DNA of 25,150 nt from positions 1-25,150 of IMG/VR virus record IMGVR_UViG_3300037264_002061, one strand, 5' to 3'. The translations under genes were made by a program, and so were the position numbers. This document shows positions 1,191-21,530 of the stretch, piece by piece (positions within the stretch are counted from its first letter, which is position 1; each line of letters starts with the position of its first letter). The notes beneath the pieces were generated by a model, which saw only the letters and a list, made by a program, of their open reading frames with translations, made no database searches and was not told where the DNA came from. Origin of the DNA: a virus.

Positions 1191-1553
1191 TCACGGCAGG
1201 AGCGACTTCAGAATGGCGCGCACCCGCGCCCGGAGCTGCTGGGCCGTCAGGAGCGTCTCCCCGGCCCGAACCTGGCACTTCTGGATCTCTTCCCAGAGGG
1301 CTCGCGCCACCGCCTGGACCACGAGGCCGCCTTCCAACTGCTGCGCCCGGTCGTCCCGTTCCGCGTCCAATACGGATGGCGCGTTCGGGTCGAACGTCGT
1401 GAGCAAGGCGTCCCCGGCGGCGATCTGGGCTGTGGTCGCAGTCGGCGCATACTGGATGACCCACGTCGCGCGATCCGCCTCCGCGCCGACGGTGACGCCG
1501 AGCACGGGAATCCCAGCCGCAACGAGCGCACGGGTCAGCCGGTCGGCCACCAT
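1191..1553 (-). CDS. Conserved-type phage protein downstream of the fibre gene
   Basis: A 120-residue soluble protein. The N-terminal half (residues 1-60) alternates short strands and an Ala/Thr-rich helix; the C-terminal half is a helix with many Gln, Arg and Ala. Its layout resembles short uncharacterised proteins I associate with genes after tail fibres in short-tailed phages; this is family memory, not a verified match. The ATG at 1553 overlaps the fibre stop as TGATG, and a strong GGAGGT (1563-1568) is 9 bases before it, inside the end of the fibre gene. It has one cysteine and no signal peptide, unlike the fibre. A role as fibre chaperone or virion component is possible but unsupported. 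Confidence 0.75.
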   Translation of the reverse strand: MVADRLTRALVAAGIPVLGVTVGAEADRATWVIQYAPTATTAQIAAGDALLTTFDPNAPSVLDAERDDRAQQLEGGLVVQAVARALWEEIQKCQVRAGETLLTAQQLRARVRAILKSLLP

Positions 1554-3309: not shown

Positions 3310-3534
3310 TTACTGCGAGTGATTATGCCACGACTGTCGAAGCAGCCACCAGATGACCTGCACACACCCCAAGGCGCCGGTCACGGTCGCCACCATGGCC
3401 CCCACGAAGACCAGCCACGGGGGCGCCTCGGCCCACGCCCACAGCGCCCGCCCAAGCCCTTCAACGAGCCACAGCAGGGGCGGGCTCGCCGAGGAGGGCC
3501 GCCGCCTGGCGGCGGGTCCGTTGCCACGCCTCAC
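3310..3534 (-). CDS. Small membrane protein overlapping the end of the polyvalent protein gene
   Basis: The C-terminal 55 residues form two hydrophobic, Trp-rich segments (one just before and one after a 'WAEAPPWL' turn), giving a hairpin-type membrane protein with a short basic/polar tail ending in Asn-His-Ser-Gln. The stop is at 3310 and the reading overlaps the 3' end of the giant gene (stop at 3461) in another frame. The start is uncertain: GTG at 3534 gives about 74 residues; tandem CTG codons at 3477 and 3474 would give about 55 residues and begin near the membrane segment. No candidate has a strong ribosome binding site, so it is probably translated by coupling to the giant gene. A holin is a natural guess for such a hairpin protein, but no motif proves it. 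Confidence 0.6.
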   Translation of the reverse strand: MRRGNGPAARRRPSSASPPLLWLVEGLGRALWAWAEAPPWLVFVGAMVATVTGALGCVQVIWWLLRQSWHNHSQ

Positions 3535-6500
3535 GCGACAGGAGCCGCTCCACGGTAAAGGCGTCCTTCCGAGCCAGCGACCGCAACGCCCGTCCGCGGA
3601 CCCCTTCTCGCGCGTCGGCCATGGCCCGCTCCAAGACGGCGACGTTGGTCTCATCGGAGCGGCCGGCAAAGCGTGGGCTCGCAATTCGCTCCTCGAGGAT
3701 GATCCGGACTTCTCGGCCCAACGCCTCGCTCAGAACATCTTCCTGCTCGCGAGTGAGATCCACTCGCACCCCGTTGCGTGTCAACTGTGGGCGCGGGGTC
3801 ACGGGCCGGAGCTTTAGCCGCGCGAGGGTGAGCGTCAACTCGTCTGAGGCCGCTTTGGAGACTTCCGGGACGAGGAACCCACGCTGATACCACGGTCCAG
3901 GCCGCGGGACGACGGGCGCTCCGAACCGCGTCCGCCGTACGGGCAACGTGTCCGACTGCCCTGGCGTGATCGCCTGTACGCTCTCCGCCACGCCCTCCGG
4001 GCGCCTCGCGTACGGATCAACGGCCTGCGTGATGTTCCGGAGCATGCCGCTGAAGGGGACGAGCCCCTGGGTGAACAGGCTGACCCACCGCCCGGCCTGC
4101 CGTGGCTCATCGAGCGCGTTCTGAAGTGACTCCAGTCCGGAGAGGAACGACTGGTCGAGGATCGACTGCCCAGCACCGGCCACGGCTGCGGCCACGGCAT
4201 CCTGCGCCGCCGCCTCATCCTGCTGCGAGGCCTCCCACGACTGCCACGCATTCGCCGCCGCCGAGAGCATGACCGAGTAGGGCTGGAACAGCACATACCG
4301 CACCCAGAACGTGCCGATCTTGATGGCGTTCCCGAGCTTCCCGAGGGCGTAGAACTCTTCGCGCTCGCCGGGATCATCGGGCGGCGCCCCGGTCAGACGC
4401 CCGGTGGCCGCCAGCCACACGAAGGGGATGAGGGCCATGCTCCCAAGAAGCGCCCGCCCACGGGCCTGTGCCTGTACGCGTGCATCCGTCGATCGCGCGC
4501 CGCGCATCGCGACGCCAGCCGGGGACCATTCGAAGCCCTGCCGAGTGATCGCGCCCGTAATCCGCATGAACGGAATCACGATCGTGGTGGCGATCCTGGC
4601 CGCAGCCGGCGCCGTCGGCCCTTTCAGTTTCAGGAGTGTCCGGATGATGAAACCCGGATCCTCGTTGAACGTGGCATGGTCGGCAAACTCAGACGCCCGC
4701 TCGAGGATGCCCGCCATCGCCTCCCCGTCCGGCGTCGTCCGATCCACGGCGGCCAGCAGCTCGGCCATCCGCGCCGCGATCCTGGGCGGGGCGGTCAGAC
4801 CTTCCTGTCTGGCGTGGCTGAAGAGGCCCGCGTAGAGCTCCTGGTGATGGGCGATCGTGCGGAAGAACTCATCCACCGCCTCCAAGGCACGGCCAGGGAT
4901 GTTGAAGGGATTCGCCAGCCCGCCAGGTAGTTCCACCCGTGGAGTGTCGAACTTCCCCGAGGCGGCCCGCTCCACCGTGCTCGGCCGGAAGCCTTCCGCG
5001 AACGTGAACCATGCCTGCCTGATGCCGCGATCCAGCCCGACGACCGTGCCTCCGAGGGCATGCGGGAGTTCGCTGAGGTACACGGCCCGCACGCCGCCCT
5101 TCGTCGCCACGCGGTAGAGGTCGGCTGGCACGGCCCCGAGCGGGACGGCCATGTTGGCCAGCACGTTGAAGGTGTTGCCGATCAGATTTCGGAGGTGCGT
5201 CTTGATGCCGGACAGCAGGTTCGCGTAGTAGATTGCCAGAGCGTAATCGACGAGCGTCCCCTGCCGCAGGGCTCGCAACTGCTTCAGCGGGTCGCCGGCG
5301 GCCTCAAGAGCCACCTTGGAGGCTTTCGCCAAATCCCCAGCGAACCCGGGCGCCTTGAGAATCTTGTCGATGAACGCCGACTCGCCCAACTCCAGCGCAC
5401 GCCCCTTCACCCGCAGGATGTTCAGCGCCCGCCCTGCCTCGGCCTTCGCGCCCCGGTAACTGGCCACCAGCACGGTCGCCACGTCCGTCAGATAGGAGAT
5501 GCGCGCCTTCTCGCGGTCGGTGGCCGTCTTCTCCTGAAGCTTCTGGAGCAACGGCTTCCGGGCCGTCAACGCCGTGGCGATGGCCGTCTGGTAGGCCTGC
5601 AACTCCTCCGCATTCAGGGCGGTGCCAGGCTTCAGGGTTTCCAATGGCAACCAGACATCCTTCGACAGGTCGGCTGTCCGCGGCCACGACTGGACATCCC
5701 GACGCTGAGGCTGGAACCCGCCGTACTGCTCGAGCAGCGCCTGCACGTCTGGGCGAATCGCCTCCGGCATCTTCTGGAGGCTCGGGAACTCCAGCCGCTT
5801 GGCCTCGGGAATCCGTACCGCCGGCGGGATGGCACGCCCCTCCGTGGGAATCGAGACCGGCCGAGCCTCACCAGCCTTCTGGAGGGCCGCCTCGTAAATC
5901 TGCCGGAGGTGTGGGCGGATGGCCTCCCCGAACTCCCGGATCATCTCCGCCGACCACTGTGCGAACCGGATGCTCCCCTTGGCGATCTTGGTCGCCCCGA
6001 TGATCGCCAGGTCGGCGAGGTCGTCCGCTGGAAGCCCGGCTATCGCCCGCTTGCCCGTCAGCGTGCCGCGGTCCTTGAGGCGGGCTTTGGCATCCTGCTC
6101 AATCGACTCCAGGGCACTGAGCGCCCGCTCGGCAACGGTGGCTTCCTCCCCCGCGACTACCCCACCCTCGTCTTCGTCGATCTCTTGGACGTCCTCAACC
6201 CCTGTGACGGGCACGCCGAGGGCCTTCGCAACCTCCTCGGCCTTGGTCTTCGCCGCCGCCAGATCCGCCTCCTGCTCAAACGGCGTGCCGAGGATCAACT
6301 CGTACCTGGCGATCTCCTCCTTGACCTGATCGCGCGACCAAGTGTCCTCGCGCGTGATGTCGTCGATTGCGCTCGTCACGGCCGTCAGCAGGCCCATGGG
6401 ATTGCGCCAGTTCTGCCCGCCGGGCCCTTGGGGATCTGGCGTCAGCAGTTCCAACGGCAGCGGCGTGTAGACATCGTCTTGGACCTTCCCGCCGTAGCGT

Positions 6501-9500
6501 GGCACCTTCGCTTTGGGATGCCGCAACACCAGCCACGGATCGGTCGTGCCGTTCCCCTCGATTGTCAGCGCCAGCCCGCGGTACGTGCCGATGGCCTTGG
6601 GCTGCACGTACGACTGCCACACGCCAGGATGCGCGTCGGTCTTGCGCGTCGCAGCCTGCGCCGCCGCCAAGATGGCCTCACCGATGGCGGTGTGCCCCGT
6701 CACGGTCTCGCCCTCGATCTGGGCCGTGCGGGCCGTGGCCTCCACGTCCTCCGTGACCGCCTCAGCGGTGCGCTGGCGTTGCTCGTCGCGTGCGGTCATG
6801 GACGCGAGCTGCGTACGCCTCGCCTCCAAGCTGTACTCCGCTTCGCGGCGCGACTCCTCCCAGCCGGTGTACACCATCTCGAGCCGCTGCACCTCGCCCT
6901 GGGCCTTGGCGAGCTCCAGCACCAGCGGGTTGCCCGTGGCGATCGCCTTCATCTCAGAGGCGGTCAGAACGGTCTGTTCCAAGTCGAGCGAGAGATCCCG
7001 TTCCTGGAGGCGCCCGTTGAAGAAGCGCGCGATGATTTGCGCCTTCGCCTCGTTCAACTGCCACATGTACGCGTCAAACCCGAATTGCTGCCCGGCGCCC
7101 TTCGCGACGTAGTTCAGCACGCGCACCCGAAAGGCCGGATCCGCCGCCGCTAAGGCGTGCCCCTGTCGGAGGATGCGCCCGATCCGCTGCTCGATGTCGG
7201 AGGGCTTCCACGCGGGGTCCACGTTGTGGAGCGCGACGAGCCGCTCCTGGACGTTCATCCCGGTGCCCATCTTGCCGGTGGAGCCGATCAGGACCCGCAC
7301 CTCGCCAGACCGCACCTTCCGGAACAGGGCTTTTCGGGCGCCGTCCCGCTTCTTCTCCGGCACGGCGTCGAGATCGTGGATGAACGCGATCTGCGCGGCG
7401 GGGATCCCGGCCTTGACCAGTTTCTTCTTCAGGTCCGCGTAGAGGTCGTACCCACGGTTCCGCTCGGCCTCCGTTGGTGGGCGGAGGACGGTCTTCCCGC
7501 TCGGCAGCGTCATCTTCCGCGCCTTGAGGCTCCGCTGCTCCGACCCCGGCGTGCCGGCGTCCATGAAGATCAGTTGCGCCCCCTTCACGCGGGCGTGCTC
7601 GCGATAGATGTCGGCCGCCTCCTCAGCGACGCGGTGCATCTTGTTCCCGCGCTCGTCTGGGGCGCGTCGATCCAACAGCCGCAGGTCCAGCATGCCGGCG
7701 CGGCCTTCGCCGGTGATCTTCACCATGTTGTCTGCACGGCGGTCGCGCGGGTCCAGATTATCGGCACGGTCCTTGAGCTCGCTCAGGAGCCTTGACTGCC
7801 CTGGTGTGAGATCCACTTGGACTACGTCGATCGTGTCGCCCTTCAACTTGGGACGCCTGGCCTTCAGCCATGGCAGGTCGTCGATCATCTTCACGTCGGC
7901 CACCTGCCGGAACATGGCCGCCAGATCCGGGAGGTTCCGGAACGCCTTCAGCCGCGGTCGGGCGGACATCCCCGTGCCGCTCGGGTCGAGCTCCGTCTCG
8001 GCCACGATGTGCCCGAACTGCGCGAGCCACGCATCGAAGGTGTGAATCCCCGCCCGCTCCAGGGCATGCTCCTGAAGCAACTTTTGCATCACGAAGATTT
8101 CCGCCATGGAATTCGAGACGGGCGTCCCGGTCGCCAGCACCACCGTGCGGTAGTTCGACTGCCGGTTGAGATACCGCACCTTCAAATACAGGTCGGCTGC
8201 TCGCTGCGCGTCGTTGTCGCTTGGGATCCCGGCCGCCTGTTGGCGTGTGGCGAAGTACAGGTTCTTGAACGAGTGGGCCTCGTCCACGAACAGCGCGTCG
8301 ACGCCAAGCTGCTCGAAGTCGAGCATGTCGTCCTTCGGCCGCTTGGCGAGGGCGTCGAGCTTCTTCTGGACGCGGTCCCGCATGTTCTCGAGCCGCTTCA
8401 CGGAGGGTGGCGTCTTCCCGGTCCCACGGCGACCTTTTTTATGCTCGCCGAGGTCGCGTCGGTACTCCGCGAGGATGGCGGTTTCGATCTCGTCGAGGAT
8501 CTCGCGGTGATACGCGCGCTCGGCCTCGGCGCTCATGGACACGCGCACGAACGCCGAGTAGGGCATGATGACCGCGTCCCACTGCCCGGAGGCAATCCGG
8601 GCCGTGAATCGACGCCGACGGTCCTTCGACAGATCCTCTGACGTGGCGACGAGCACGCGCGCATTCGGGTAGTGCTGGAGGAACTCGCTCGGGACCTGCG
8701 AGATGAGATGGTTCGGCACGACGAACAGCGGCTTCCGCGCGATCCCGAGGCGCTTCATCTCCATGGCCGCAGCCACCATCGTCAGTGTCTTGCCGGCGCC
8801 GACGACGTGCGCAAGGAGCGTATCTCCCATGAGGAGAATCCGGGCGACCGCGTCCCGCTGGTGATCGGCGATCTGCTCGCGCCAGAAGTCCGCCATGCCC
8901 GGGAAGGTCAGGAACGCCCCGTCGATCGTGGGCTCCACGTACGCGTTGAACGCATCGTTGTAGGTCCGGACGGCCCAGGACCGCCGCGCGCCTTCGTCCT
9001 TCAGTAGCCAGGACGTAAACGCCTTGTGCAGGTCTTCCTTGCGCTGTCGCGCGAGGGCTGTCGCGGTGCGGTCGACGACGGTCGTCCCTTCCACCGTGCG
9101 CTTGATCGTCCGGCGCCGGTCGTTGAGCGCGTCCAGGAGGAGGTCCTTCGTCCCGACATCGGCGGTGTCGAACTTCGACCGTAGACCCGTGCCGTCGATA
9201 CTCCACTTGGCGTCGGTCGGCTGGTACGACACCGTCACGCCGGATGCCCCACGGGCGATGTGCTCCACGAACTCCTGCACGTACGACGGGGGCACCCACG
9301 CTGCCCCCAGCCGCACGTTGATCTTGTAGGCCGGAAGATCCTCGGGGATGACGGCCATCAGCCGGTCCACTGCGGCCTGATACCGCGAGTCCAAGGCCGC
9401 CGCTGCTGACGCCTCCGCGAGCTTCACGCGCACGTTGCCGGAGAGGTAGACGACCGGGAGCTGCCAGCCGCTCGGCGTGTCAATGATGAGCCCGTCCGCC

Positions 9501-12500
9501 TGCAACGTGGCCGCGGCTTGCTCTGGACCTTGGCCCAGGAGCTCGCCCACGCGGGCGAGATCGATCCGCGCCGTCTCGCCGAGCGCAATCAGCAGGGCCG
9601 CCTGCGGGGAGCTCGCCGTGGTCGCCCGTCGGGCCGCTCGGGTCGTGCGCGTCGTGAAGATCGCCGTCTTTGTCGCCGTCTCGCGCTCCTCGTCGTACTC
9701 CTCAAGCGACAGCAGGAGCGGCAGGTCCGGATCTTCCCGGAAGGCATCCCAGTTCTCGGCCTTGGAGATGGGCCCGTGCTTCTTCACGAAACGGTCGTAC
9801 GCCTGCGTGAGCGCCTTCTGGGCGGCCGTGACTTTGGCGTCGCTTGCGTCCTCCGCCATGCGGTCGTAGACCGTCAGGAGCGCCGTGCGGATCGGCAGCA
9901 GGGCGCGGATGCGCGCATCGTCGGCCTTGCTGAGATCCAGGGGTGTGGCCCGCCCGTCGATCACTTGGGCCAGCCGATCGTCATGGATCAGGAATTCGAA
10001 CGGCCGCGTCCCTGCAGGCGCTTGGGCGTGAGTGAAGGCTGCGAGCGTCGCGGCGGGGGGCGTCAGATCAATGGCATTGGCGGGCAGCCGACGCACAGTG
10101 TCAGCCAACTGCGCAGCGAGATCGCCGGTCGGCTCGACGTTGTAGGTGTCGGCCCGGCGCATCTTCCCGGTGCTCGTGTGCGTGCCGAGCACCATCTCGG
10201 GGTGGGCCAGGAAGTACTCGTTGACGTGTTGCTCGACGCCAGCACCCTCCTTGTTGGCGAGCGTCACAGGCCTGATGGCCGCCCACGGTCCTGCGTGCTC
10301 GGCCTGCGCCCCCGCATGGCGCTTCCGGAGGAACAGGATGTCGGTGACGACCTCCGTCCCGGCGGTCGCTTTGAATGCCGTGAAGGGCAACCGGATGCCG
10401 CCAAGGAAGTCCGCCCGGCTGGCGAGATACTCCCGCACGCGCTGCCCAGTGTCGTCTCGCGCATCCATCGTCCCATGCGACGTCACGAACGCGATGAGCC
10501 CGCCAGGGGCCACCTTGTCGAGCGCCTTCGCAAAGAAGTAGTTGTGGATGCGTTGCTTCACGAACGCCGGGCCCTGAAACGTTGGATCCGTGATCGGGAT
10601 CGCGCCGAAGGGCACGTTGCTGATGGCAACGGCAAAGTGATTATCCGGAAGCGTCGCCGCTTGGAATCCGCTGTGATGGGCGTATGTGCCAGGATAGAGT
10701 GCCGACGCGATCGCCGCCGTGACGCCGTCCTTCTCCACGAGCGCCCACGGCGCACTCCGCAGGTCCTCCGGCACGAGCCCGACAAAGTGCCCGATGCCAG
10801 CCGCCGGCTCAAGGAAGGAGCCCGTGCGTACACCCAGGTGTCGGACTGCGTCCCACATCGCGCGGATCACCGTCGGCGAGGTGTAGTGGGCATTCTGGGT
10901 GGAGTTCCGCGCGAGGCTGTACTCCTCCGTCGTCAGGAGTTCCTTGAGTTGCCGGTCGGCATCGTTCCAGAAGGCATCCGGGGAGTCGTCGCCTTCCTCG
11001 CGCTTCCAGTATTCGAAGATGCGCGGCAGGCCGCCCCAGCCGACGTACCGCACGAGGGCGGCTTGCTCCTCGGGAGTCGCACGGCGCTGCTCACGCGCGA
11101 GCGCTGTGACGATCCGGATGGCGGCGAGATTGCGCGTGACACGCTCGCGGGCGGAGCCGGTGCCGATCGAGTCACTGTCGGTGATGCGATAGCGATCCGC
11201 GCCGAGGGCGGGATTCTCGGCCGCTACCGCGGCGGGCCGTACCGGGCGTCCCCCGCGAACGGGTCGAGGTCCGGCGGAAACAGGTCCTCCCTCGCCAGCT
11301 CCCTCGCCGCTGACCACGGCAGGCCCTCCCGGACCAGCCGCCGCTCGAGGCGGGCGTTCTCCTGCATCAGGAGGTCGACCTCCCGGTCGGTCAGGTTCGG
11401 CTGCGACCGCTTCACCGCCAGCCACAGTGCCGTCTTCATCGGGGATCTCGCTTTCAGGCTGCGCCTTTCCAAAGACGGTGTCAACATCAACCGTCTGTCC
11501 CGTCAACCGCTTCCACGCCGCGGCGAAGTACGCCCGCAGTTTCTCCGGGAACGTCTCGCCAGTGAGGTCCTGCCACTGCGCTTGGAGGAGCAAGGCCGCT
11601 TTCCGGGCCTCCACTACGCCGTCGTCAAGGTAGGTCCGGACGATCCCGATCATGGCGATGCCGTGCTTCGGGTTCACGCCGGCGCCGATCTCGGTTGAGA
11701 GATCCTTGGCGAGCTGCGTGATTAGGTCGTCGCGCTTCTTGGCGTTCTCCGCCTTGCGCGTGGCGAGGGCCTCGCGCTGCTCCTCGGCGGCGGTCTTGGG
11801 CGGCCGCGCTTCGAACGGCCGCTCAACAGCTACGCCAGCCGGCACAATCTGCGGTGTGACTGGCTTCTTCTCTGGTGCCTTCGGCTCCTCGCCACGGTCG
11901 CGTAGCACGTCGGCGGCAATCCGACGCTCGCGGGTCGTGGCTCTGACATCCTGGCCATTGGCAATCGTCCGGATCTCCTCAACTGACCGATCCTCCATCT
12001 CGCGACGAACTCGGAGATCAGGGCTGATCGCCACTTCGCGCACGCCGGGCATGTCGCCCTCGGGCGCTTGCCGCGCGCCGATAAGGATCTCAGCCTCGGC
12101 CACCGCCTCCGTCTTCTGCTTGGCGCGATCCCGTCGATACCAGGTCCCAGAGGTCTTCGCCCAGCGGTAGCCCGCCCGCTTCAGTTGCTTGCGGACCTCC
12201 TCAGATGGCTTCTCCGCGAACCTGACTTCGACGGACTCAAGGCGGTCGTTGTAGGTGACGGATGGCTGGCCTTCGCGGGCTTCGGCCGCAGCAGCGCGAG
12301 GAGCCTCAGCCGAAACGGCCGGTCCTGCAACAGGAGTCGTAGCAGGTCGCCCATGTGCCTCCTCCGGTGGTGTCTGGCCCTCCACATCCTGAACGACGAC
12401 ATTCCACAGTTCCTCGTCCGTCATCTCCGAGACGGGCTTGGTAACGGCTGGTGTCGGTTGGCGTGGGCTGGTCACGGCTGGTGCCCGCTGCGCGCCCGTC

Positions 12501-14803
12501 AGCGGGATCCTGACGGTTCCGCCGTCCTTGGCCGAGAACGTGACGTTCTCCAAGAGGATCGTCTGCCCTTCGAGGGCATCCAGCCCGTCGTACTCCTTCC
12601 CCTTCCCTGGCTGGACGTACGCCAAGGTGACATGCGGGCGGTACTCCGGGTACGTGTCAGTCGTCTCCAACGCCTCGGCGATCTTGGCGTTCAGGGCGTG
12701 CAGTTCGGGCGAAGCGACGATATCGATCTTGACGGCATCTGCGGTCCCACCCTCAACCCCGGCGAAGTGCGATGTCGTCCCGAACGTGGCTCGGATCGGG
12801 GCGACATCCTTCAAGACAGCCCGCACCTCTTCGACATCATCCGTGTGGAGCCCGTACTTCACGGTCAGGTGGGGCTGTGTCTCTCGCCCATCTGCCGCGA
12901 GGTCCTCGTCCTTCACCGTGGCCGCCATCGCCAGCACGTCGTGGGCGACTCCAGGCGGAAGGTCGACTTGGGTTGAGGCGAACTTTCGCTCAGCCGGTTC
13001 TGGAGGCGTGAAGGTCGCGACTTGGAGCTCAGGGGCGTCCCTGGTTCCCGCCGGCGGGAACGAAAGCTGCTCCTCAGATGGCCTGTTCTGAACCAATCGA
13101 TAGCCGCGAAAGCCCTCTACCTCTTCAACTGCCACCCATCCGCGCTCCAGTGCCTCGCGGGGCTCGACGCCGAGAAGGGTCCGCACACGCTCGCCGGTCA
13201 TCAGCGTGCGCCCTTCGAGATCAGGCACATCCGAAAGCACTTCCTGCCCATCCACCAGTTCAGCCGGCTGTTGGGGTGTGAAAGTCGCAACTTGGAGCTC
13301 TGGTGGGGCGTTCAGGCTTGCACTTGGAGCCTGTGGGGCCACGCTAGGAGCTTCCGGAGGCGTCTGGACGGCGACAGGGGCCACAGGAGGCGCTGTGTGA
13401 GGCGCAGCCGGAGGGAGGCTCCAAGTTCCACCCTGATCGCCACCCCAGAGCTCCACCAAGGCTCCAAGTGTGGCCCCAAGTGGCTGGACATCGACCGGCG
13501 CAGCGGTGGCCACGGGTGCAGGCGGCGGGGCCGTCTGACGTGCGACCCGTGGGCGAGGTTCTGGCTGGCGGAGCGGTGTTTCCTGGCCAGTTCCAAGTGT
13601 CTGCATGACCCGCTGCACGGCGGTCGCGCCAGCCGTCTGGGCCACCGTCCCGACGATGGTCGCGACAAGGGTCTGCTTCGCGGCGCTCCATCGCTCATCC
13701 CGATAGGCTGAGAAGGGCTTGTCCGGGTTGAGATAGACCCACTCGTTCAGGTCTTGCACGAGCGTAGCGAGTTGCTCCTGGGGCACCTCCAGCCCGACCT
13801 GGGCGAGCACGGTTTTCCAGAGTGCCTTGTTCGCCGCCAGATCCTTGAGCAGCTTCGACGCCGGCAGGAGTTCCGTCAGCACTTCCGTGGCACCATCGGC
13901 CACGGCCGCCTTCGCCGCCTCGAGAGGGGGCTTCCCCGACGCCATGGCGGTCTCGAAGGTATCGCTGCCAGTCGTGAAGCCCATCGCGGCCAGGAGCGGC
14001 GCCGGGTTGCCAGAGAGAATCCCGAGGGCAATCGCTGGCGCGGTCATCGCGATCGACTCCACGCCGCTGTAGACGCCGCGCTCGATCTCGCCGGCGAGGG
14101 GATCCGTCAGTTCCTGTGCCGTCACTTGCTCCGTCAGCGTCGTGACGGTGCGCGTCGCCAGATCCGCCACCGAGGGCAGATGCAGCGCCTCCCCGGCCGC
14201 GCCTATCGCCCGCCAGAAGGGCGCGTTGACAGCCCGGCTGAGCCGCGCGACCCCGGACGCGGCGGCCGTGCGCAGGTTCGCGCCGACATCGCGCGCAGGC
14301 GGCACAGCATCCGGCGGCGGACGCATACGTATGGAGGGCTGTGGAATCGCTACGCGCTCGGCGGGCGTGAGATGAGCCGCGACGGGCTGAATCGGCGCCG
14401 TCCCGCCGGCGGGATGGGCTGCTTGGAGACTGACCGTGTCCGCAAACTCCGGGCTCCATCCGCCCGCTTCGAGGGCTCGGCGCGTCCCAGGGGCGACGCC
14501 GGGCTGACGCGCTCCGGTCCTGGTGGAGAACCCCTCAACGAACTCGGTAGGATGGCCTGGCTTCTTGTACTGCGAGGGCCAGTGCCCGGCGGCATCGGGC
14601 ATCGCGCCCGCCAGGAAGGCGGCGCGGTAGTCGTAGAACTGGTCTGGACTGTCTGGGTCTGGGCTCAGGTCGCCGCGGTACGTGCCGTACCAGGCCCGGA
14701 AGGCCTGCTCGTCGTCAGTCGGAGCCTTGGTGACGGGCGTGTACGACTTGATCGCCAGCGGGGCGGGCGGCGCGTAGGCCTTGATGCGGAGCTGGCTCGC
14801 CAT
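3461..14803 (-). CDS. Giant virion-type polyvalent protein: 2H phosphoesterase, N6-adenine methyltransferase, SF2 helicase
   Basis: A single intact frame of 3780 residues. Domains in order: an N-terminal segment (about 35-90, with 'DYRAAFLAGA'), typical of the beginning of phage polyvalent proteins; a hydrophobic Ala/Gly-rich segment (about 245-310); Pro/Ala linkers; a 2H phosphoesterase domain (about 606-785) with H645-x-T647 and H724-x-T726; a small domain (about 849-898, 'LKRAGYRWAKTSGTWYRRD') found in antirestriction-type polyvalent proteins; an Ala/Pro/Gly linker; an N6-adenine methyltransferase (about 1196-1495) with motif I 'EPAAGIGHF' at 1332 and motif IV N1396-V-P-F; and an SF2/SNF2-type helicase (about 1975-2620) with Walker A K2005, DEAH 2174-2177, 'ATGTPVSNS' near 2221 and 'RIGRILRQGH' at 2540. 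The C-terminal third is helical with hydrophobic stretches near 3190-3225, 3400 and 3450. The start ATG lies 3 bases after the previous stop with no ribosome binding site. P1 DarB is the best known relative in architecture. No cysteine was found on reading. The role, delivered with DNA to block restriction and perhaps nucleotide signalling, is inferred. Confidence 0.95.
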   Translation of the reverse strand: MASQLRIKAYAPPAPLAIKSYTPVTKAPTDDEQAFRAWYGTYRGDLSPDPDSPDQFYDYRAAFLAGAMPDAAGHWPSQYKKPGHPTEFVEGFSTRTGARQPGVAPGTRRALEAGGWSPEFADTVSLQAAHPAGGTAPIQPVAAHLTPAERVAIPQPSIRMRPPPDAVPPARDVGANLRTAAASGVARLSRAVNAPFWRAIGAAGEALHLPSVADLATRTVTTLTEQVTAQELTDPLAGEIERGVYSGVESIAMTAPAIALGILSGNPAPLLAAMGFTTGSDTFETAMASGKPPLEAAKAAVADGATEVLTELLPASKLLKDLAANKALWKTVLAQVGLEVPQEQLATLVQDLNEWVYLNPDKPFSAYRDERWSAAKQTLVATIVGTVAQTAGATAVQRVMQTLGTGQETPLRQPEPRPRVARQTAPPPAPVATAAPVDVQPLGATLGALVELWGGDQGGTWSLPPAAPHTAPPVAPVAVQTPPEAPSVAPQAPSASLNAPPELQVATFTPQQPAELVDGQEVLSDVPDLEGRTLMTGERVRTLLGVEPREALERGWVAVEEVEGFRGYRLVQNRPSEEQLSFPPAGTRDAPELQVATFTPPEPAERKFASTQVDLPPGVAHDVLAMAATVKDEDLAADGRETQPHLTVKYGLHTDDVEEVRAVLKDVAPIRATFGTTSHFAGVEGGTADAVKIDIVASPELHALNAKIAEALETTDTYPEYRPHVTLAYVQPGKGKEYDGLDALEGQTILLENVTFSAKDGGTVRIPLTGAQRAPAVTSPRQPTPAVTKPVSEMTDEELWNVVVQDVEGQTPPEEAHGRPATTPVAGPAVSAEAPRAAAAEAREGQPSVTYNDRLESVEVRFAEKPSEEVRKQLKRAGYRWAKTSGTWYRRDRAKQKTEAVAEAEILIGARQAPEGDMPGVREVAISPDLRVRREMEDRSVEEIRTIANGQDVRATTRERRIAADVLRDRGEEPKAPEKKPVTPQIVPAGVAVERPFEARPPKTAAEEQREALATRKAENAKKRDDLITQLAKDLSTEIGAGVNPKHGIAMIGIVRTYLDDGVVEARKAALLLQAQWQDLTGETFPEKLRAYFAAAWKRLTGQTVDVDTVFGKAQPESEIPDEDGTVAGGEAVAAEPDRPGGRPPDAGERPPRAAAGPGGPAVVSGEGAGEGGPVSAGPRPVRGGRPVRPAAVAAENPALGADRYRITDSDSIGTGSARERVTRNLAAIRIVTALAREQRRATPEEQAALVRYVGWGGLPRIFEYWKREEGDDSPDAFWNDADRQLKELLTTEEYSLARNSTQNAHYTSPTVIRAMWDAVRHLGVRTGSFLEPAAGIGHFVGLVPEDLRSAPWALVEKDGVTAAIASALYPGTYAHHSGFQAATLPDNHFAVAISNVPFGAIPITDPTFQGPAFVKQRIHNYFFAKALDKVAPGGLIAFVTSHGTMDARDDTGQRVREYLASRADFLGGIRLPFTAFKATAGTEVVTDILFLRKRHAGAQAEHAGPWAAIRPVTLANKEGAGVEQHVNEYFLAHPEMVLGTHTSTGKMRRADTYNVEPTGDLAAQLADTVRRLPANAIDLTPPAATLAAFTHAQAPAGTRPFEFLIHDDRLAQVIDGRATPLDLSKADDARIRALLPIRTALLTVYDRMAEDASDAKVTAAQKALTQAYDRFVKKHGPISKAENWDAFREDPDLPLLLSLEEYDEERETATKTAIFTTRTTRAARRATTASSPQAALLIALGETARIDLARVGELLGQGPEQAAATLQADGLIIDTPSGWQLPVVYLSGNVRVKLAEASAAAALDSRYQAAVDRLMAVIPEDLPAYKINVRLGAAWVPPSYVQEFVEHIARGASGVTVSYQPTDAKWSIDGTGLRSKFDTADVGTKDLLLDALNDRRRTIKRTVEGTTVVDRTATALARQRKEDLHKAFTSWLLKDEGARRSWAVRTYNDAFNAYVEPTIDGAFLTFPGMADFWREQIADHQRDAVARILLMGDTLLAHVVGAGKTLTMVAAAMEMKRLGIARKPLFVVPNHLISQVPSEFLQHYPNARVLVATSEDLSKDRRRRFTARIASGQWDAVIMPYSAFVRVSMSAEAERAYHREILDEIETAILAEYRRDLGEHKKGRRGTGKTPPSVKRLENMRDRVQKKLDALAKRPKDDMLDFEQLGVDALFVDEAHSFKNLYFATRQQAAGIPSDNDAQRAADLYLKVRYLNRQSNYRTVVLATGTPVSNSMAEIFVMQKLLQEHALERAGIHTFDAWLAQFGHIVAETELDPSGTGMSARPRLKAFRNLPDLAAMFRQVADVKMIDDLPWLKARRPKLKGDTIDVVQVDLTPGQSRLLSELKDRADNLDPRDRRADNMVKITGEGRAGMLDLRLLDRRAPDERGNKMHRVAEEAADIYREHARVKGAQLIFMDAGTPGSEQRSLKARKMTLPSGKTVLRPPTEAERNRGYDLYADLKKKLVKAGIPAAQIAFIHDLDAVPEKKRDGARKALFRKVRSGEVRVLIGSTGKMGTGMNVQERLVALHNVDPAWKPSDIEQRIGRILRQGHALAAADPAFRVRVLNYVAKGAGQQFGFDAYMWQLNEAKAQIIARFFNGRLQERDLSLDLEQTVLTASEMKAIATGNPLVLELAKAQGEVQRLEMVYTGWEESRREAEYSLEARRTQLASMTARDEQRQRTAEAVTEDVEATARTAQIEGETVTGHTAIGEAILAAAQAATRKTDAHPGVWQSYVQPKAIGTYRGLALTIEGNGTTDPWLVLRHPKAKVPRYGGKVQDDVYTPLPLELLTPDPQGPGGQNWRNPMGLLTAVTSAIDDITREDTWSRDQVKEEIARYELILGTPFEQEADLAAAKTKAEEVAKALGVPVTGVEDVQEIDEDEGGVVAGEEATVAERALSALESIEQDAKARLKDRGTLTGKRAIAGLPADDLADLAIIGATKIAKGSIRFAQWSAEMIREFGEAIRPHLRQIYEAALQKAGEARPVSIPTEGRAIPPAVRIPEAKRLEFPSLQKMPEAIRPDVQALLEQYGGFQPQRRDVQSWPRTADLSKDVWLPLETLKPGTALNAEELQAYQTAIATALTARKPLLQKLQEKTATDREKARISYLTDVATVLVASYRGAKAEAGRALNILRVKGRALELGESAFIDKILKAPGFAGDLAKASKVALEAAGDPLKQLRALRQGTLVDYALAIYYANLLSGIKTHLRNLIGNTFNVLANMAVPLGAVPADLYRVATKGGVRAVYLSELPHALGGTVVGLDRGIRQAWFTFAEGFRPSTVERAASGKFDTPRVELPGGLANPFNIPGRALEAVDEFFRTIAHHQELYAGLFSHARQEGLTAPPRIAARMAELLAAVDRTTPDGEAMAGILERASEFADHATFNEDPGFIIRTLLKLKGPTAPAAARIATTIVIPFMRITGAITRQGFEWSPAGVAMRGARSTDARVQAQARGRALLGSMALIPFVWLAATGRLTGAPPDDPGEREEFYALGKLGNAIKIGTFWVRYVLFQPYSVMLSAAANAWQSWEASQQDEAAAQDAVAAAVAGAGQSILDQSFLSGLESLQNALDEPRQAGRWVSLFTQGLVPFSGMLRNITQAVDPYARRPEGVAESVQAITPGQSDTLPVRRTRFGAPVVPRPGPWYQRGFLVPEVSKAASDELTLTLARLKLRPVTPRPQLTRNGVRVDLTREQEDVLSEALGREVRIILEERIASPRFAGRSDETNVAVLERAMADAREGVRGRALRSLARKDAFTVERLLSREAWQRTRRQAAALLGEPAPAVAR
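13008..13030 (-). repeat. Direct repeat copy 2 inside the polyvalent protein gene
   Basis: Nearly identical (21 of 23 bases) to 13278-13300, and in the same frame, both encoding the core of 'PELQVATFTP'. The copies are exactly 270 bases (90 codons) apart and flank a compact module of about 80 residues just upstream of the 2H domain. Confidence 0.75.
13278..13300 (-). repeat. Direct repeat copy 1 inside the polyvalent protein gene
   Basis: Partner of 13008-13030. It closes a long Pro/Ala-rich linker. The two differences are third-position changes, so the encoded peptide is kept. Confidence 0.75.
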
Positions 14804-14806
14804 GGG

Positions 14807-16072
14807 TCATCGCGTCGTCGGCTGGACACTTCCGTCCTCGCGCACCGTCCACGTGGTTCCATCCGTCAACTCGTAGTCCCCGACCTTCTGGCCTTTCAGC
14901 AGGGTTCCGACGCTCGCCGGCACACCACCGGCTGGACGTCTGGCGGCCCCTGTCCGGAGATCCGGCGGCAGGATACGATCCCTCGAGGCGGCGGCCTTCC
15001 CGGTCGGACTCGTCACGGGCGGGAGATTGAGTTGTTCTCGGTAATTGTTCTCGATCGCCAGTTGCCGACGCCGCACATCGGCAGGTTGGAGCTCCGACCG
15101 AGGATCGGCCAGGTCGCGCTCGAGCCGATCCAAGGCGTCCCCGCGCCACCGGATAGCCACCGCCCGGGCGCTGTCGGTCAACCCTCGCCGCTCTTCGCGG
15201 CTCAGTCGGTCCTCGCGTTGCTCCGCCAGATCCTCTAGGAATTGCTGGTGCTCGGCTGTGCGCTTCGCCGCCGCAGCTTGCCGCTCGTCATCGACCGTCC
15301 GGCCGTGCTCGGTCCCCGCCTGCTCGGCCGTCAGCGCCCACTTCCGGAGTCGTTCTGGGGCGTCCGTGGAGAACGCGCCGGCCTGCTCAACGAGGCTGTC
15401 CGCCACGCCAAGGAACCGTGCGTGCCTCGTCCCGGTCTCCCACGCCTCCTCGGTCGTGGCGTCGGCTAAGAGTTCGCCCAGGAAGCGCCGCTGCTCCGTG
15501 TCGCTCACGCGCGCGTGCTGCTGGGCCTTCGTGAAGGCGTCCGCGAGCGCCAGTTTCTTCGCGAGGCCAGCCGTCTCCAGGCTCGCCCGCTCGACGAACT
15601 GCGTGATCCCCCGTACCCGCGCGGGGTCGTAGGCCTCCGGGATCTCCTCAGCCAGACGCGGATCAAGGCTCACCGCCATCTCCACGAGCGTGGGCCGAAT
15701 CTGCGGCCAGACGTCCGGCCGCGCTTCGGCTTCCTGCAGGAGCGCGGGGGCGCGTGTGTAGACGTCCGTGTGTTGGGCGATGCGCTCGCCCATCTTGGAC
15801 AAGGCCTGCTCGCGGATCGCGCCGGCCCCGTCCCGGAGCGATCGCGCCGTGGACCAGTCACCCGACTGCTCCAGAATGCCGGCGGCGCCGTCAAGACTGC
15901 CCTTCGCTTGGTTGACGGCCCGCTCGATCGCCTTCGTGCGCTTCGCCTCTTTGGACTGCTGCTCGAACTTCTCCAGATTCCCGGCCAGGCTCATCATCGC
16001 CGAGAGGCTCTGCATGGGATCCTGCCCCTGCGGCATTGGAATCAGTGGATAGGATCGCGGCTGGTACGGCAT
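14807..16072 (-). CDS. Helical internal virion / DNA-ejection-type protein
   Basis: A 421-residue protein that is almost entirely helical and charged. It has a Met/Pro-rich beginning, long Glu/Arg/Ala/Gln helices with coiled-coil character (strongest at about 255-345), and a final small beta part of about 40 residues with a Thr/Trp strand ('DYELTDGTTWTV'). There are no cysteines, no signal peptide and no enzyme motif. It lies between the 269-residue ejection-type protein and the giant polyvalent protein; in P22- and T7-type phages this place after the tail hub holds the internal core or ejection proteins (P22 gp7, gp20, gp16; T7 gp14-16). Start ATG 16072 lies 4 bases after the previous stop with no clear ribosome binding site, so coupling is likely. 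The function is inferred from composition and place. Confidence 0.82.
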   Translation of the reverse strand: MPYQPRSYPLIPMPQGQDPMQSLSAMMSLAGNLEKFEQQSKEAKRTKAIERAVNQAKGSLDGAAGILEQSGDWSTARSLRDGAGAIREQALSKMGERIAQHTDVYTRAPALLQEAEARPDVWPQIRPTLVEMAVSLDPRLAEEIPEAYDPARVRGITQFVERASLETAGLAKKLALADAFTKAQQHARVSDTEQRRFLGELLADATTEEAWETGTRHARFLGVADSLVEQAGAFSTDAPERLRKWALTAEQAGTEHGRTVDDERQAAAAKRTAEHQQFLEDLAEQREDRLSREERRGLTDSARAVAIRWRGDALDRLERDLADPRSELQPADVRRRQLAIENNYREQLNLPPVTSPTGKAAASRDRILPPDLRTGAARRPAGGVPASVGTLLKGQKVGDYELTDGTTWTVREDGSVQPTTR

Positions 16073-16076
16073 GGGT

Positions 16077-16886
16077 TCAGTACGCCGGCGGGGGCGGTGG
16101 CTGATACGTCGGCATCCCCTGTTTCGCCAGCCCGTAGAGGCTCATCAGCTTGGTCCAATAACTGTTCGCCGAGTCCTGGTTTAGGCCGAATCCCGTCGCA
16201 GCCGTGTTGAAGTTGGTCCCGTAGGTCTGGAGCCCGCGGGTGAACTCGTCCTGCTCGGCCCCGTACTGCATGGCGTACTCCGAGAGCCGCTTGCCAAGGC
16301 CGCCCTGCCACTCGCCGAACTTCCGGTTGTAGACGTTCCCGAACTCCTGCGCCGCCAGGCCTTGGCCGTGGGCCATCAAGTCCTTGAGCGTGCCAGCGGA
16401 CCGCAGGAGCCCCTGGGAGGCCGCCGCGTTCTGCATGGCCTCCTGCCCTTGACTGAGGCGGAACTGATACCCGGGGTCGGTTTGGAAATTCTCCGCTGTG
16501 GGTCCCTCGAAGTCGGGGTAGTCCCACGTTGGCATGTCGAATGTCGGAGGAGCGAAGTCGGGGTGACTGAACTGCCCGTACCCGGCGCCAGTCCCGACAG
16601 GAGGGGCGCCGGTGGCACCGGTGGCACCGGGTCGTTGCGATGTGGCCCGCTGCGTCAGCCACGCCCGAAACTCATCGCCACCCCCGCGGTTATAGCGATC
16701 GACGGCATCATCCAGATCGGATTCGGATGGTTTGATGCCCATGATGCGCGCATACTCGCTGCGCAGCCATTCCCGTTGCGCGGCGACCCGCTCCTCGGGC
16801 GTGGGGTATCGTGGCAACCCGGCCGGCGTCCTCTCACGCTCGTCTGGCCCCTCGGGTGGCGGTGGCTCCTCGCGTTCTAACGCCAT
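16077..16886 (-). CDS. Ejection-type virion protein with the 'DPGYQFRL' phage motif
   Basis: A 269-residue protein. The start ATG at 16886 is set by GAGGAG (16893-16898) 6 bases upstream; a longer frame to 17261 would lie inside the previous gene and is rejected. Residues 1-60 are Pro/Glu-rich then helical. Residues 85-130 are a Gly/Pro/Thr linker. From about residue 141 comes the 'DPGYQFRLSQGQEAMQNAAA' stretch followed by 'GLLRSAGTLKDL' and 'LAAQEFGNVYNR', a combination I know from many short-tailed phage virion proteins, sometimes named DNA transfer proteins. It ends in a Pro/Tyr tail. It has no cysteine and no signal. The motif supports a virion role strongly; the exact step in DNA delivery is inference. 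Confidence 0.85.
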   Translation of the reverse strand: MALEREEPPPPEGPDERERTPAGLPRYPTPEERVAAQREWLRSEYARIMGIKPSESDLDDAVDRYNRGGGDEFRAWLTQRATSQRPGATGATGAPPVGTGAGYGQFSHPDFAPPTFDMPTWDYPDFEGPTAENFQTDPGYQFRLSQGQEAMQNAAASQGLLRSAGTLKDLMAHGQGLAAQEFGNVYNRKFGEWQGGLGKRLSEYAMQYGAEQDEFTRGLQTYGTNFNTAATGFGLNQDSANSYWTKLMSLYGLAKQGMPTYQPPPPPAY

Positions 16887-16900
16887 TGGCGTCTCCTCAG

Positions 16901-17506
16901 TTAATCGACGTAGGACGGCCGCGCTGGACTGCCCGACAACTTGGCGAGCGCCAGGAGTGTCCCCAGATCCGGCATCCGGCTCTGTGGCATCGGTACCTGC
17001 GCGAACTGCCGTCGTGCTGCGCGCGGCCGGGCCGCAGGGCTCTGGCCTCCAGGGCCTGACGGTGCGCCCTCCATCACGCCGACGCGCGTCTCGGGCGGGA
17101 CCGACCAATCGGGCGCGGGCACGTCCCCAGGCGCGAACGCGGTCCCGCCACCGCCACCGCCACCGCCGCCCTGCGGCAACCCAGCCAACCCGTAGAGACT
17201 GTTCAGCGTCCCGGCGGCGAGGTTCCAATGCGGTGCGTAGATCGTCCGGTAGTCCTCCCACCGTTGGCGGTCCTGGGCAAGATAGTCCTCGTAGGACTTC
17301 CGCCGCCAGTCCGTGTCTGCGCGGGACCGCTCACCCTCCAGCGTGAGCCGTTCTCCCTCCCGCACATCGGCCCGTTGGTCCGATCGCTCTTGTGCGCTGA
17401 TGGACTGCTTGTTGGTATCGCCCGCACGTTTCGCGGCATAGGCGCTGCTGGCCGCCGAGGCCGCGCCGATCCCGATGGCGATGGCCGTACTGGTCGCGAC
17501 GCTCAT
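16901..17506 (-). CDS. Small ejection-type protein with N-terminal membrane segment and poly-Gly hinge
   Basis: A 201-residue protein. The start ATG at 17506 overlaps the preceding stop (ATGA) and has a strong AAGGAG (17515-17520) 8 bases upstream. Residues 3-25 are a small-residue hydrophobic helix (Ala/Gly/Ile/Ser), followed by a charged helix (about 26-92) rich in Arg, Glu and Asp, a run of nine Gly (113-121), a Pro-rich linker and a short C-terminal helix. This architecture resembles the smallest internal-core proteins of short-tailed phages (T7 gp14, P22 gp7), which are thought to line the channel through the outer envelope. It contains no cysteine. No sequence match is claimed; the call rests on shape and position. 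Confidence 0.78.
   Translation of the reverse strand: MSVATSTAIAIGIGAASAASSAYAAKRAGDTNKQSISAQERSDQRADVREGERLTLEGERSRADTDWRRKSYEDYLAQDRQRWEDYRTIYAPHWNLAAGTLNSLYGLAGLPQGGGGGGGGGTAFAPGDVPAPDWSVPPETRVGVMEGAPSGPGGQSPAARPRAARRQFAQVPMPQSRMPDLGTLLALAKLSGSPARPSYVD
17144..17170 (-). repeat. GGT/GGC triplet run encoding nine glycines
   Basis: Alternating GGC and GGT codons give a 27-base near-microsatellite within the gene at 16901-17506. Its length could vary by slippage in whole codons without breaking the frame. Confidence 0.8.
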
Positions 17507-18516
17507 GGTGTCAACTCCTTGACGTACGCCACCTCGAGGCGCTCGTACCCAAGATGCGCGTACAGCCGTTCCACGTCCTCGGTCGGCGCCACCATCTGCA
17601 TCATAGTAGCACCGTGGTCACGCGCCCACGCCTCCGCGTGACGGAGGAGACGCACCCCAACCCCGCGATGCTCAGGACTCACCCAAAAGAACAGTTCCCC
17701 TGCCGTGAGCGCCCCAGAGAGATGGTGCGGAAAAAGGACCACGCCAATCATACCCACGAGCGCGCCAGCCCGCTCGACCACGAGCAGGACGCCAGTCGCC
17801 TCCGTGATGAGTCGCTCAGCCAGTGCTCGCAACTGCGTCGGGTTATGTGGCACCCATCTGCTGTAGCCAGAGGTCACTCCGAAGCGTTGCCCCATCACGA
17901 GGAGGGCCTGGATGTCCGAAAGGGTCGCGGGCCTGATGGCCGACGGAGGCGCCTGACGTGACGGATACGCGCCGAACGCCACCTGAATCAGTCGTGCCGT
18001 CTCGCCCACGCCATAATTCTCGGCGATCGCCCGCGAATGAAAATAGCGCGAGTCGTAGACGAGGACCCGATTGAAGCGCGCCGGGACGTGGTGCCACGGC
18101 GTCCACAGCGCCGCGTCCTTGTCCAGCGCCCGCGCCGATCCGAGGACCGCACCGGTCGGCTCGAAGCGCCAGAAGGTCGTCCCATCTGCGGCGGGGGGCT
18201 CCGGATTGAGATACAGGACGGCAGTCCACTCCCCCATGCCTTCGTCGGAATGGATGAAGTTGGGTTCCTCCTGCCCGAGTGGACTCCGCCGAAAAAAGGA
18301 CAGTCGTGTCTGACTCTCCGGAAGGACGCGCTGCACGAGGCGCCCAAGGGTGGCGTCCGTCAGCAGCGCGATGCCGTGCCACTGTTCCTCGCCCGTGACG
18401 ATCGTCTCAAACGTGTGGCTGAGCGCCCACGCCCGATACGCCTCCGGTCGAGGCAACACGTCATCCAACACGGTCAGGAGTGCTGGAGGAGCGGCGCACG
18501 CGTCGATCATCGTCAT
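17503..18516 (-). CDS. Fused 2-oxoglutarate/Fe(II) oxygenase-like and GNAT acetyltransferase-like protein
   Basis: A 337-residue two-domain protein. Residues 10-185 look like a 2OG-Fe(II) oxygenase: H89-x-D91 in 'NFIHSDEG', a strand 'TAVLYLN', H160 in 'YDSRYFHSR' and R175 in 'ARLIQVAFG', fitting the HxD...H...R metal and 2-oxoglutarate pattern. Residues 193-337 look like GNAT: strands ending 'ELFFWVSPEHRGVGVRLL' (R284-G-V-G287, the acetyl-CoA pyrophosphate loop) and a C-terminal 'LYAHLGYERLEV' stretch typical of the fold. The start ATG at 18516 lies 2 bases after the preceding stop with a weak AGGA; a longer reading to 18792 is rejected as it overlaps the previous gene. It sits between tail genes and ejection genes, so virion or host protein modification is possible. 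Substrates are unknown. Confidence 0.85.
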   Translation of the reverse strand: MTMIDACAAPPALLTVLDDVLPRPEAYRAWALSHTFETIVTGEEQWHGIALLTDATLGRLVQRVLPESQTRLSFFRRSPLGQEEPNFIHSDEGMGEWTAVLYLNPEPPAADGTTFWRFEPTGAVLGSARALDKDAALWTPWHHVPARFNRVLVYDSRYFHSRAIAENYGVGETARLIQVAFGAYPSRQAPPSAIRPATLSDIQALLVMGQRFGVTSGYSRWVPHNPTQLRALAERLITEATGVLLVVERAGALVGMIGVVLFPHHLSGALTAGELFFWVSPEHRGVGVRLLRHAEAWARDHGATMMQMVAPTEDVERLYAHLGYERLEVAYVKELTP

Positions 18517-18518
18517 CG

Positions 18519-19019
18519 TTATCCTGCGTCGAGCGCCAGTTCTTCGGCAACCACATCGAGCTCGTAAACCATTGGTGTACCCACGCTGCCGTACGTGGTC
18601 GAATAGCTGATCGGGGTGCTCCCATCCGACCGAAGGATCACGGACACGCCCTCTCGCGTCGTCGTCGCGTTTCCGACCAACGCCGCCCCTGCCTGGCTCT
18701 GGGCGATCCCGCGCGTCCAGTGGACCGTGACCTGGATCGAGCTGCTCACCGACGCCGGGGTCGTCACCCGGACCTGATAGCTCACCCGCCACACGCCAGG
18801 CCCGATCGTCGCCAACGGGATCGGCGTCGTCGCCACGCTCGCCGACTGCCCCGCCAGCGGGACATGCGCCACGCGCGCGGGTCGATCATCCAGGGTCAGC
18901 GTCAGATTCGACAGCCACCGCTGCCACGCGCCCCCGACCAGCAGGCGCGGGAACCGCGGCGTGTTCGTCTCCGGCACGGCAATCACGTCCCGGAACGGCG
19001 GTGAGGGCCCGACCGCCAT
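18519..19019 (-). CDS. Small beta-rich virion-type protein, function unknown
   Basis: A 166-residue protein with alternating Thr/Ser/Val strands from about residue 35 to 150, fitting a beta-sandwich, and an acidic helix-like end. It has no cysteine, no signal and no catalytic motif. The ATG at 19019 directly abuts the preceding TAG, with GAGG just upstream. It follows the hub gene at once, so it may be a tail accessory, fibre-docking or decoration-type protein. I cannot name the family. Confidence 0.72.
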   Translation of the reverse strand: MAVGPSPPFRDVIAVPETNTPRFPRLLVGGAWQRWLSNLTLTLDDRPARVAHVPLAGQSASVATTPIPLATIGPGVWRVSYQVRVTTPASVSSSIQVTVHWTRGIAQSQAGAALVGNATTTREGVSVILRSDGSTPISYSTTYGSVGTPMVYELDVVAEELALDAG

Positions 19020-21206: not shown

Positions 21207-21530
21207 CTACTTCGTCTCCGTTGCTTTCGGCGCCAGCGGCACGAGCCTCCACGTCGTCATGTCCAGTTTATACCCTGGCGCTTTGGTCGCGAGTTCCTTG
21301 TTCAACTGCGCCCGCAGCTCGTCGCGCATCGTCAGCACCGATCGGTACGCCTGATACTCGGGCAGCTTCTCGACGATAGCCCCGTGAGCCTTCAGGCTGT
21401 CCTCGGCCGACGTGAGCACCTGACGCCAGACCGCGAGCGCACTCGCATCCAGCGCGGGCACCTTCACCTCCTGCGCGACGAGTACGGCCGAGAGCAGTAG
21501 GAGCACGCCAGTTCGCAGCATCGTGTTCAT
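21207..21530 (-). CDS. Small exported helical protein with Sec signal peptide
   Basis: A 107-residue protein. The ATG at 21530 overlaps the spike stop by 4 bases (ATGA) and is preferred to the upstream candidate at 21542. The first 19 residues have one Arg, a Leu/Val core and a cleavage-like Val-Ala before Q20. The mature part is two helices rich in Ala, Leu, Glu and Lys with an amphipathic pattern ('LTMRDELRAQLNKEL') and a short strand at the end. It has no cysteine. It lies between the exported spike and the cytoplasmic adaptor gene. Its translational coupling to the spike suggests a chaperone, anchor or partner of the spike in the periplasm, but this is inference; I do not recognise the family. 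Confidence 0.75.
   Translation of the reverse strand: MNTMLRTGVLLLLSAVLVAQEVKVPALDASALAVWRQVLTSAEDSLKAHGAIVEKLPEYQAYRSVLTMRDELRAQLNKELATKAPGYKLDMTTWRLVPLAPKATETK

Follow-up and report, generated by a model that had tools for sequence, protein, structure and literature searches.

Cysteine-free proteins in a predicted podophage ejection module and their relation to known ejected proteins

Described ejection proteins and the cysteine-free block

The virion RNA polymerase (vRNAP, gp50) of N4-type phages (Schitoviridae) is a giant protein that contains no cysteine (Cys), and the N4 protein is known to be ejected with the DNA. The lack of Cys has been suggested to ease passage through the tail and the periplasm (PMC3715699, PMC2784036, PMC3915230); these papers noted it for vRNAP only, and not for its neighbours or for other families. 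Cys-less giants of Zobellviridae have also been noted (PMC10747016). A giant protein of 3780 amino acids (aa) and three small proteins, all four without Cys, are encoded by consecutive genes in IMGVR_UViG_3300037264_002061; this IMG/VR record, 25,150 bases long and used in its entirety, is referred to here as the window. The record is a linear phage fragment with a GC content of 66.7%. The window giant differs from vRNAP in having a DarB-type methyltransferase/helicase core in place of a single-subunit RNA polymerase core.

The same core and the same absence of Cys are found in the giants of Lastavirus, Lessievirus, Pavtokvirus and phage VvAW1, in which the genes are ordered hub, GNAT or another small gene, small proteins and giant. 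The window giant shares only 33-39% core identity with the giants of these annotated phages and has a 2H domain, and the window GNAT is fused to an oxygenase. Polyvalent proteins (Iyer et al. 2017, PMC5512222) are likewise multidomain proteins that combine SWI2/SNF2 and DNA adenine methylase domains and are predicted to be injected, but those of conjugative elements retain Cys. DarB of phage P1 is also an injected methyltransferase/helicase directed against restriction; it differs in belonging to a phage with a contractile tail and in containing 9 Cys in 2255 aa. On the basis of an N6-methyltransferase and SNF2-type helicase core in one chain, the window giant is probably a DarB-like polyvalent protein, for which packaging and an antirestriction role are predicted. 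The podophage ejection proteins of P22 (gp7, gp20 and gp16), T7 (gp14, gp15 and gp16) and SU10 (gp20-24) also lack Cys entirely or nearly so. They show no family match to the giant, and only the 269-aa protein of the window matches a "DNA ejection" family.

Cysteine is not mentioned in a review of ejection proteins (PMC8954989) or in the survey of polyvalent proteins (PMC5512222), and no statement was found in the open-access literature that the whole podophage ejected set is Cys-free across families or that the effect is weak in phages with contractile tails. What is new is the inclusion of DarB-type giants, the extension to the whole module and the breadth across families; the explanation for the N4 vRNAP has already been published.

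Cysteine content, chance and base composition

The genes at 3461-14803, 14807-16072, 16077-16886 and 16901-17506, all on the minus strand (the original prediction named no strand), encode products with 0 Cys in 3780, 421, 269 and 201 residues, respectively. The total of 0/4671, with all frames intact, agrees with the original prediction, which had read about 4,670 Cys-free residues in four consecutive products. The order of transcription is 201, 269, 421 and 3780 aa; a plus-strand reading of the same coordinates gave meaningless frames and was rejected. The flanking products carry the counts first reported for the fibre (8 Cys), the hub (6) and the adaptor (1), but the spike contains 13 rather than 12. 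The oxygenase-GNAT has 3 Cys in its longest frame, and the single Cys first ascribed to it is obtained only if translation starts at an internal ATG (M-T-M-I-D-A-C).

The chance expectation was described by an over-dispersed negative binomial null fitted to 153 non-ejection proteins from 16 phages. The Cys rate in the other (non-ejection) sampled phage proteins is 0.84 per 100 residues, close to the one per 100 that had been assumed for ordinary proteins, and a lack of Cys common to all virion proteins was rejected on this ground. Under the null, the probability of no Cys is 0.45 at 100 aa, 0.12 at 300 aa and 0.006 at 1000 aa. The giant gives 2e-5 and the small proteins give 0.06, 0.15 and 0.22, with a joint value of 5e-8, and the absence thus exceeds chance as had been claimed. 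Nearly all of the statistical weight lies in the giant, because the small proteins individually give only 0.06-0.22. About one in eight ordinary phage proteins of 300 aa is Cys-free by chance, and in proteins shorter than about 500 aa a lack of Cys carries no information.

Base composition was rejected as the cause. The codon-position base composition of the giant predicts 33 Cys codons where 0 are observed, the two same-strand alternative frames of its DNA contain 127 and 101 Cys codons, and in homologues Cys alone is depleted, among relatives whose GC spans 0.46-0.69. Tryptophan (Trp), whose codon has TG in common with the Cys codons, is above expectation in the giant (50 vs 29.5). A wider explanation without selection would combine compositional bias, repeats or phylogenetic inertia from one Cys-poor ancestor. 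Many relatives do cluster, and their counts are not independent; nevertheless, five unrelated families show the pattern, as do separate lineages of DarB proteins. The frame and homologue tests both contradict this explanation, which is regarded as extremely improbable.

Ejected families, relatives and non-ejected homologues

The ejected sets of T7, P22, N4 and SU10 have been established by experiment (PMC8402733, PMC9509320), and their sequences are mutually unrelated. In T7, gp15 and gp16 contain 0/747 and 0/1318 Cys, and gp14 contains 1/196. In P22, gp7, gp20 and gp16 contain 0/229, 0/471 and 0/609, respectively (0/1309 in total). The N4 vRNAP, named in the original prediction as lacking Cys, contains 0/3500; with 0/794 for gp51 and gp52, which adjoin it, the total is 0/4294. 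The SU10 proteins gp20-24, which were identified as ejected by mass spectrometry because genome-release intermediates lack them (PMC9509320), contain 0/2956 Cys, and gp19, encoded immediately before them, contains 6/343. Non-redundant IMG/VR families show the same depletion, with 2 Cys in 31,475 aa for T7 gp16, 6 in 46,461 for N4 vRNAP, 0 in 4,854 for P22 gp16 and 0 in 4,418 for SU10 gp24. DarB giants other than those of a low-Cys clade described below contain 27 Cys in 217,913 aa (0.012 per 100).

A pool from the 16 phages was compared as well. Ejection or cargo proteins contain 11 Cys in 67,239 aa and other sampled proteins 538 in 63,821 aa, and the rate is lower in the ejection proteins of 16/16 phages. 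The ejection assignments of P-SSP7, epsilon15 and the DarB phages in this pool are by annotation or synteny and not by a measurement of ejection, and the "other" proteins were hand-picked from the annotated regions fetched.

Nine annotated relatives with a GC content of 46-69% encode giants of 3640-5007 aa, all with 0 Cys except that of Atu_ph08, which has 1; the giant of Itty13 was counted on an uninterrupted frame of about 4100 aa. The largest, Pavtok gp27 (0 Cys/5007 aa), has been cited as a putative ejection protein (PMC8402733). The small genes beside these giants encode 0 Cys, and GNAT, PAPS reductase, hub and spike carry Cys. The GNAT adjoining the block in relatives has 2-4 Cys in about 145 aa. 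In the Vibrio phage VvAW1, the genes are ordered hub, small genes, DNA-ejection protein, unknown protein and giant, as in the window. Mass spectrometry of virions of JC1, a close relative, detected two small block proteins, gp64 and gp68, together with the giant (gp69); the virion-associated proteins listed do not include gp63 (GNAT) or gp65 (PAPS reductase) (PMC9144972). The Cys-bearing insertions are thus genes with products not reported in the particle.

Several further observations were made on these relatives. A PAPS reductase gene (5 Cys/239 aa) is inserted within the otherwise Cys-free ejection block of BcepIL02 at 7905-8624. A GNAT occupies the position directly upstream of the ejection block in most DarB-type podophages; small Cys-bearing proteins hold the corresponding place elsewhere, namely T7 gp13, epsilon15 gp13 and P-SSP7 orf32 (phrog_308 for this group), and P22 gp14 (phrog_651). 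The oxygenase-GNAT of the window may modify ejection proteins before packaging. Pseudomonas phage vB_PaeM_USP_25 is a myovirus by name, yet it has a P22-type hub (phrog_8040, Hc3) and a giant with 0/4899 Cys; its name may be wrong, and it was rejected as a contractile-tail control. A DarB-type protein of Dolichospermum phage Dfl-JY45, which may or may not be ejected, contains 10 Cys in 2214 aa.

Homologues of the same core that are not ejected retain Cys. Between 7 and 17 Cys (0.84 per 100) are present in the core of about 1400 aa in 79 homologues from genome contigs, mostly Firmicutes mobile elements. Plasmid homologues of full length, four in number (three from Alphaproteobacteria and one from Rhodococcus), have 0.29-0.53 Cys per 100 and cores with 4-8 Cys; the value for P1 DarB is 0.40. 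In a tree of the core, 49/65 phage giants and 0/39 others have a Cys-free core, in line with the expectation that intracellular DarB-like versions would keep Cys. Cys-free giants interleave with Cys-bearing relatives in this tree, and those of BcepIL02 and Y7 stand beside Rhizobium and Gluconobacter plasmid proteins. Six independent pairs could be drawn from it, of which 4-6 are in the predicted direction and none is in the opposite one.

The proposed comparison of homologues and composition also bore out a specific loss. At matched GC, the giants have 0.09-0.15 of the cellular Cys level (7-11 fold depleted); the next-lowest residues, histidine and tyrosine, stand at 0.73-0.78 (1.4-fold), and Trp is enriched. 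Positions that usually hold Cys in cellular proteins carry alanine (Ala), valine, isoleucine, leucine or serine in phage proteins. The data support the conclusion that Cys has been purged specifically from the ejection module, both in relatives and in unrelated families shown by experiment to be ejected. Seven IMG/VR contigs classed as viral encode a short DarB-like protein (1700-2650 aa) with 7-16 Cys in the core, and these contigs resemble conjugative elements more than phages.

Explanations for the loss of cysteine

The four genes probably encode an ejected set from which Cys has been removed by selection against thiol oxidation during unfolded passage through the envelope, and we infer that this is the best of the explanations considered. 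The ejection proteins would be kept in the head until they pass out by way of the portal and short tail, and would then traverse the host envelope in a largely unfolded state. Building of a trans-envelope conduit would be aided by the small block proteins; the giant would reach the cytoplasm, where its methyltransferase/helicase could shield the incoming DNA from restriction. On an unfolded chain, an exposed Cys could become locked into a disulfide that is wrong or intermolecular, in Gram-negative hosts through the oxidising periplasm. Such a disulfide would stall the chain or spoil the conduit, and selection would strip nearly every Cys from the whole set.

Injected proteins of contractile-tailed phages bear on DISCRIMINATING causes: they contain 23 Cys in 6,836 aa (0.34 per 100), compared with 1 in 10,820 aa for established podophage ejection proteins (Fisher 5e-9). 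Besides DarB, the P1 proteins DarA, DdrB, DdrA and Hdf contain 1/639, 2/995, 0/121 and 1/203 Cys, respectively; the phiKZ vRNAP subunits contain 7/1941 and T4 Alt 3/682. Head storage and tail passage are common to both tail types, so neither alone explains the near-zero Cys content. The difference is that the podophage proteins themselves either make up or pass along a route through the envelope that is unshielded.

This comparison weighs on two alternatives. Cys could be barred by unfolding and threading through the narrow portal or tail channel, which a disulfide would jam whether or not a periplasm is present. The cargo of crAss001, thought to unfold during extrusion (PMC10172136), fits such a requirement, as do giants of probable Firmicutes phages, which are about 7-fold depleted without a periplasm. 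The phiKZ vRNAP subunits, P1 DarB and T4 Alt, however, pass a tail tube with 0.34-0.44 Cys per 100, and the contractile-tail pool lies about 36-fold above the podophage proteins; threading on its own is considered unlikely. Long storage in the virion, outside the reducing cytoplasm, could instead cause oxidation and cross-linking in the packed head. Virion disulfides do occur, and the tail barrel of crAss001 is held by several (PMC10172136), from which it follows that thiols in such virions oxidise. Portal, capsid, hub and spike of the same virions nevertheless retain Cys, as do the injected proteins that P1, phiKZ and T4 store in the head, and storage is the less probable of these two causes, to the point of being improbable.

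Thiol oxidation during envelope passage has also to account for variation in strictness. In contrast to its disulfide-linked barrel, the ejected cargo of crAss001 is Cys-poor (gp45-47, 3/3717; 7/7478 with gp49 and gp50 added), and the giant of Bacteroides phage BKO1-TP3 has 8 Cys in 5553 aa. Most giants have a Cys level of about 0.01 per 100, and those of phages of Bacteroidota and of probable Firmicutes one of about 0.1. Twelve giants with low but non-zero Cys belong mostly to one clade. Firmicutes are likely, though not certain, hosts of this clade, as judged from a hub homologue found in a single Clostridia genome and from N-terminal relatives present in 6/291 genomes of that class. Host envelope or oxygen may influence how strictly Cys is lost.

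Several findings weigh against selection by thiol oxidation in the envelope. The three small window proteins are individually not significant. The rule is not absolute, with 5 Cys/2574 aa in the epsilon15 core proteins and 1 in T7 gp14. The contractile-tail comparison covers three phages, and in their injected proteins Cys is already reduced about 2.5-fold. The giants form few deep clades with only 6 usable pairs, and the sign test gives p of about 0.06 (0.03 with a looser threshold). The clade from probable Firmicutes hosts, which have no periplasm, is also depleted about 7-fold (59/50,898, about 0.12 per 100). The periplasm is therefore not the sole cause, and extracytoplasmic oxidation or unfolding demands contribute too; the oxidising-periplasm cause put forward at first stays plausible but is not isolated from these.

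The two wider claims of the original prediction hold in part. Absence of Cys marks ejected proteins well above about 1000 residues, with the exceptions of T7 gp14, epsilon15 and the crAss001 cargo. As a border of the injectable set, it agrees with SU10 gp20-24 against gp19 and with the JC1 virion list, and it fails for small proteins taken gene by gene, in view of the one in eight that are Cys-free by chance. The pattern is real, strong and general, and its interpretation is partly supported. More tentatively, with the chances slightly against it, near-total Cys loss could be a general and repeatedly evolved signature of the whole podophage ejected set, which would separate that set from other virion proteins and contractile-injected proteins and whose strictness would track oxidation at the host envelope.

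The virion proteins injected by phages are usually unknown and laborious to measure. If long Cys absence marks ejection, the limits of the injected proteome could be read directly from sequence wherever a Cys-free run exceeds 1000 residues, and the injected sets of thousands of uncultured podophages would become predictable. Unknown small neighbours of giants could then be nominated as conduit parts, ejected toolkits would be barred from enzymes that need a catalytic Cys or a Cys-ligated metal, and the exposure of unfolded chains during envelope crossing would become a testable idea.

The gene block and its neighbours

The giant (3461-14803, on the minus strand, as are the rest of the block, its two border genes, the hub and the adaptor) matches PF13563, PF00176, PF00271, phrog_10089 (DarB-like antirestriction) and phrog_6651 (internal virion protein). 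Its domains are ordered 2H phosphoesterase, DarB-like N6-methyltransferase/SNF2-helicase core (phrog_10089, 1419 bits) and internal-virion-protein C-terminus. The putative 2'-5' RNA ligase/2H phosphoesterase domain lies at aa 640-733 (12605-12886; PF13563, E=3e-12). Within the core, the predicted DNA methyltransferase part occupies aa 1276-1499 (10307-10978), as assigned by phrog_9133, the overlapping phrog_3820 "DNA methyltransferase" and the core alignment. The SNF2/ResIII helicase N-lobe is placed at aa 1995-2105 (8489-8821; PF00176/PF04851) and the C-lobe at aa 2486-2548 (7160-7348; PF00271). The internal-virion-protein domain covers aa 3438-3602 (3998-4492; phrog_6651, E=1e-24).

The 269-aa putative ejection protein (16077-16886) matches phrog_598 "DNA ejection" (E=5e-12) and aligns with its VvAW1 counterpart, with which it has a DPGYQFRLS motif region in common. 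The 421-aa protein (14807-16072) takes the place that gp2 has in VvAW1 and aligns with it at 22% identity, and the 201-aa protein (16901-17506), with a hydrophobic Ala-rich N-terminus, is assigned to the module by position. No family match to these two was found in domain and PHROG profile searches. Homology to ejection proteins within the block thus comes from the 269-aa protein and the C-terminus of the giant.

The block is bordered upstream by a fusion of a 2OG-type oxygenase (DUF6445) and GNAT (17503-18792; 1-3 Cys according to the start chosen), the stop of which overlaps the 201-aa gene by 4 bases. Downstream, the border is a fibre-like protein with 8 Cys (1553-3289). A P22 gp10-type hub (head closure Hc3; 19020-20513; phrog_578, E=4e-72), with 6 Cys and outside the Cys-free set, and a head-tail adaptor with 1 Cys (20462-21199; profile matches) are also encoded. 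The giant thus lies amid late virion genes, with hub, adaptor, spike and fibre adjacent, and the block adjoins P22/T7-type neck genes (Hc3 hub and adaptor) in the order seen in VvAW1. No tape measure, sheath or tube genes were recognised within the 25-kb fragment. Gene content and order support the assignment of the block as a probable podophage ejection module in a phage with a P22-type neck. Outside the block, between spike and adaptor, a 111-aa protein with a signal-like N-terminus (21207-21542) also has 0 Cys, at a length too small to be informative.

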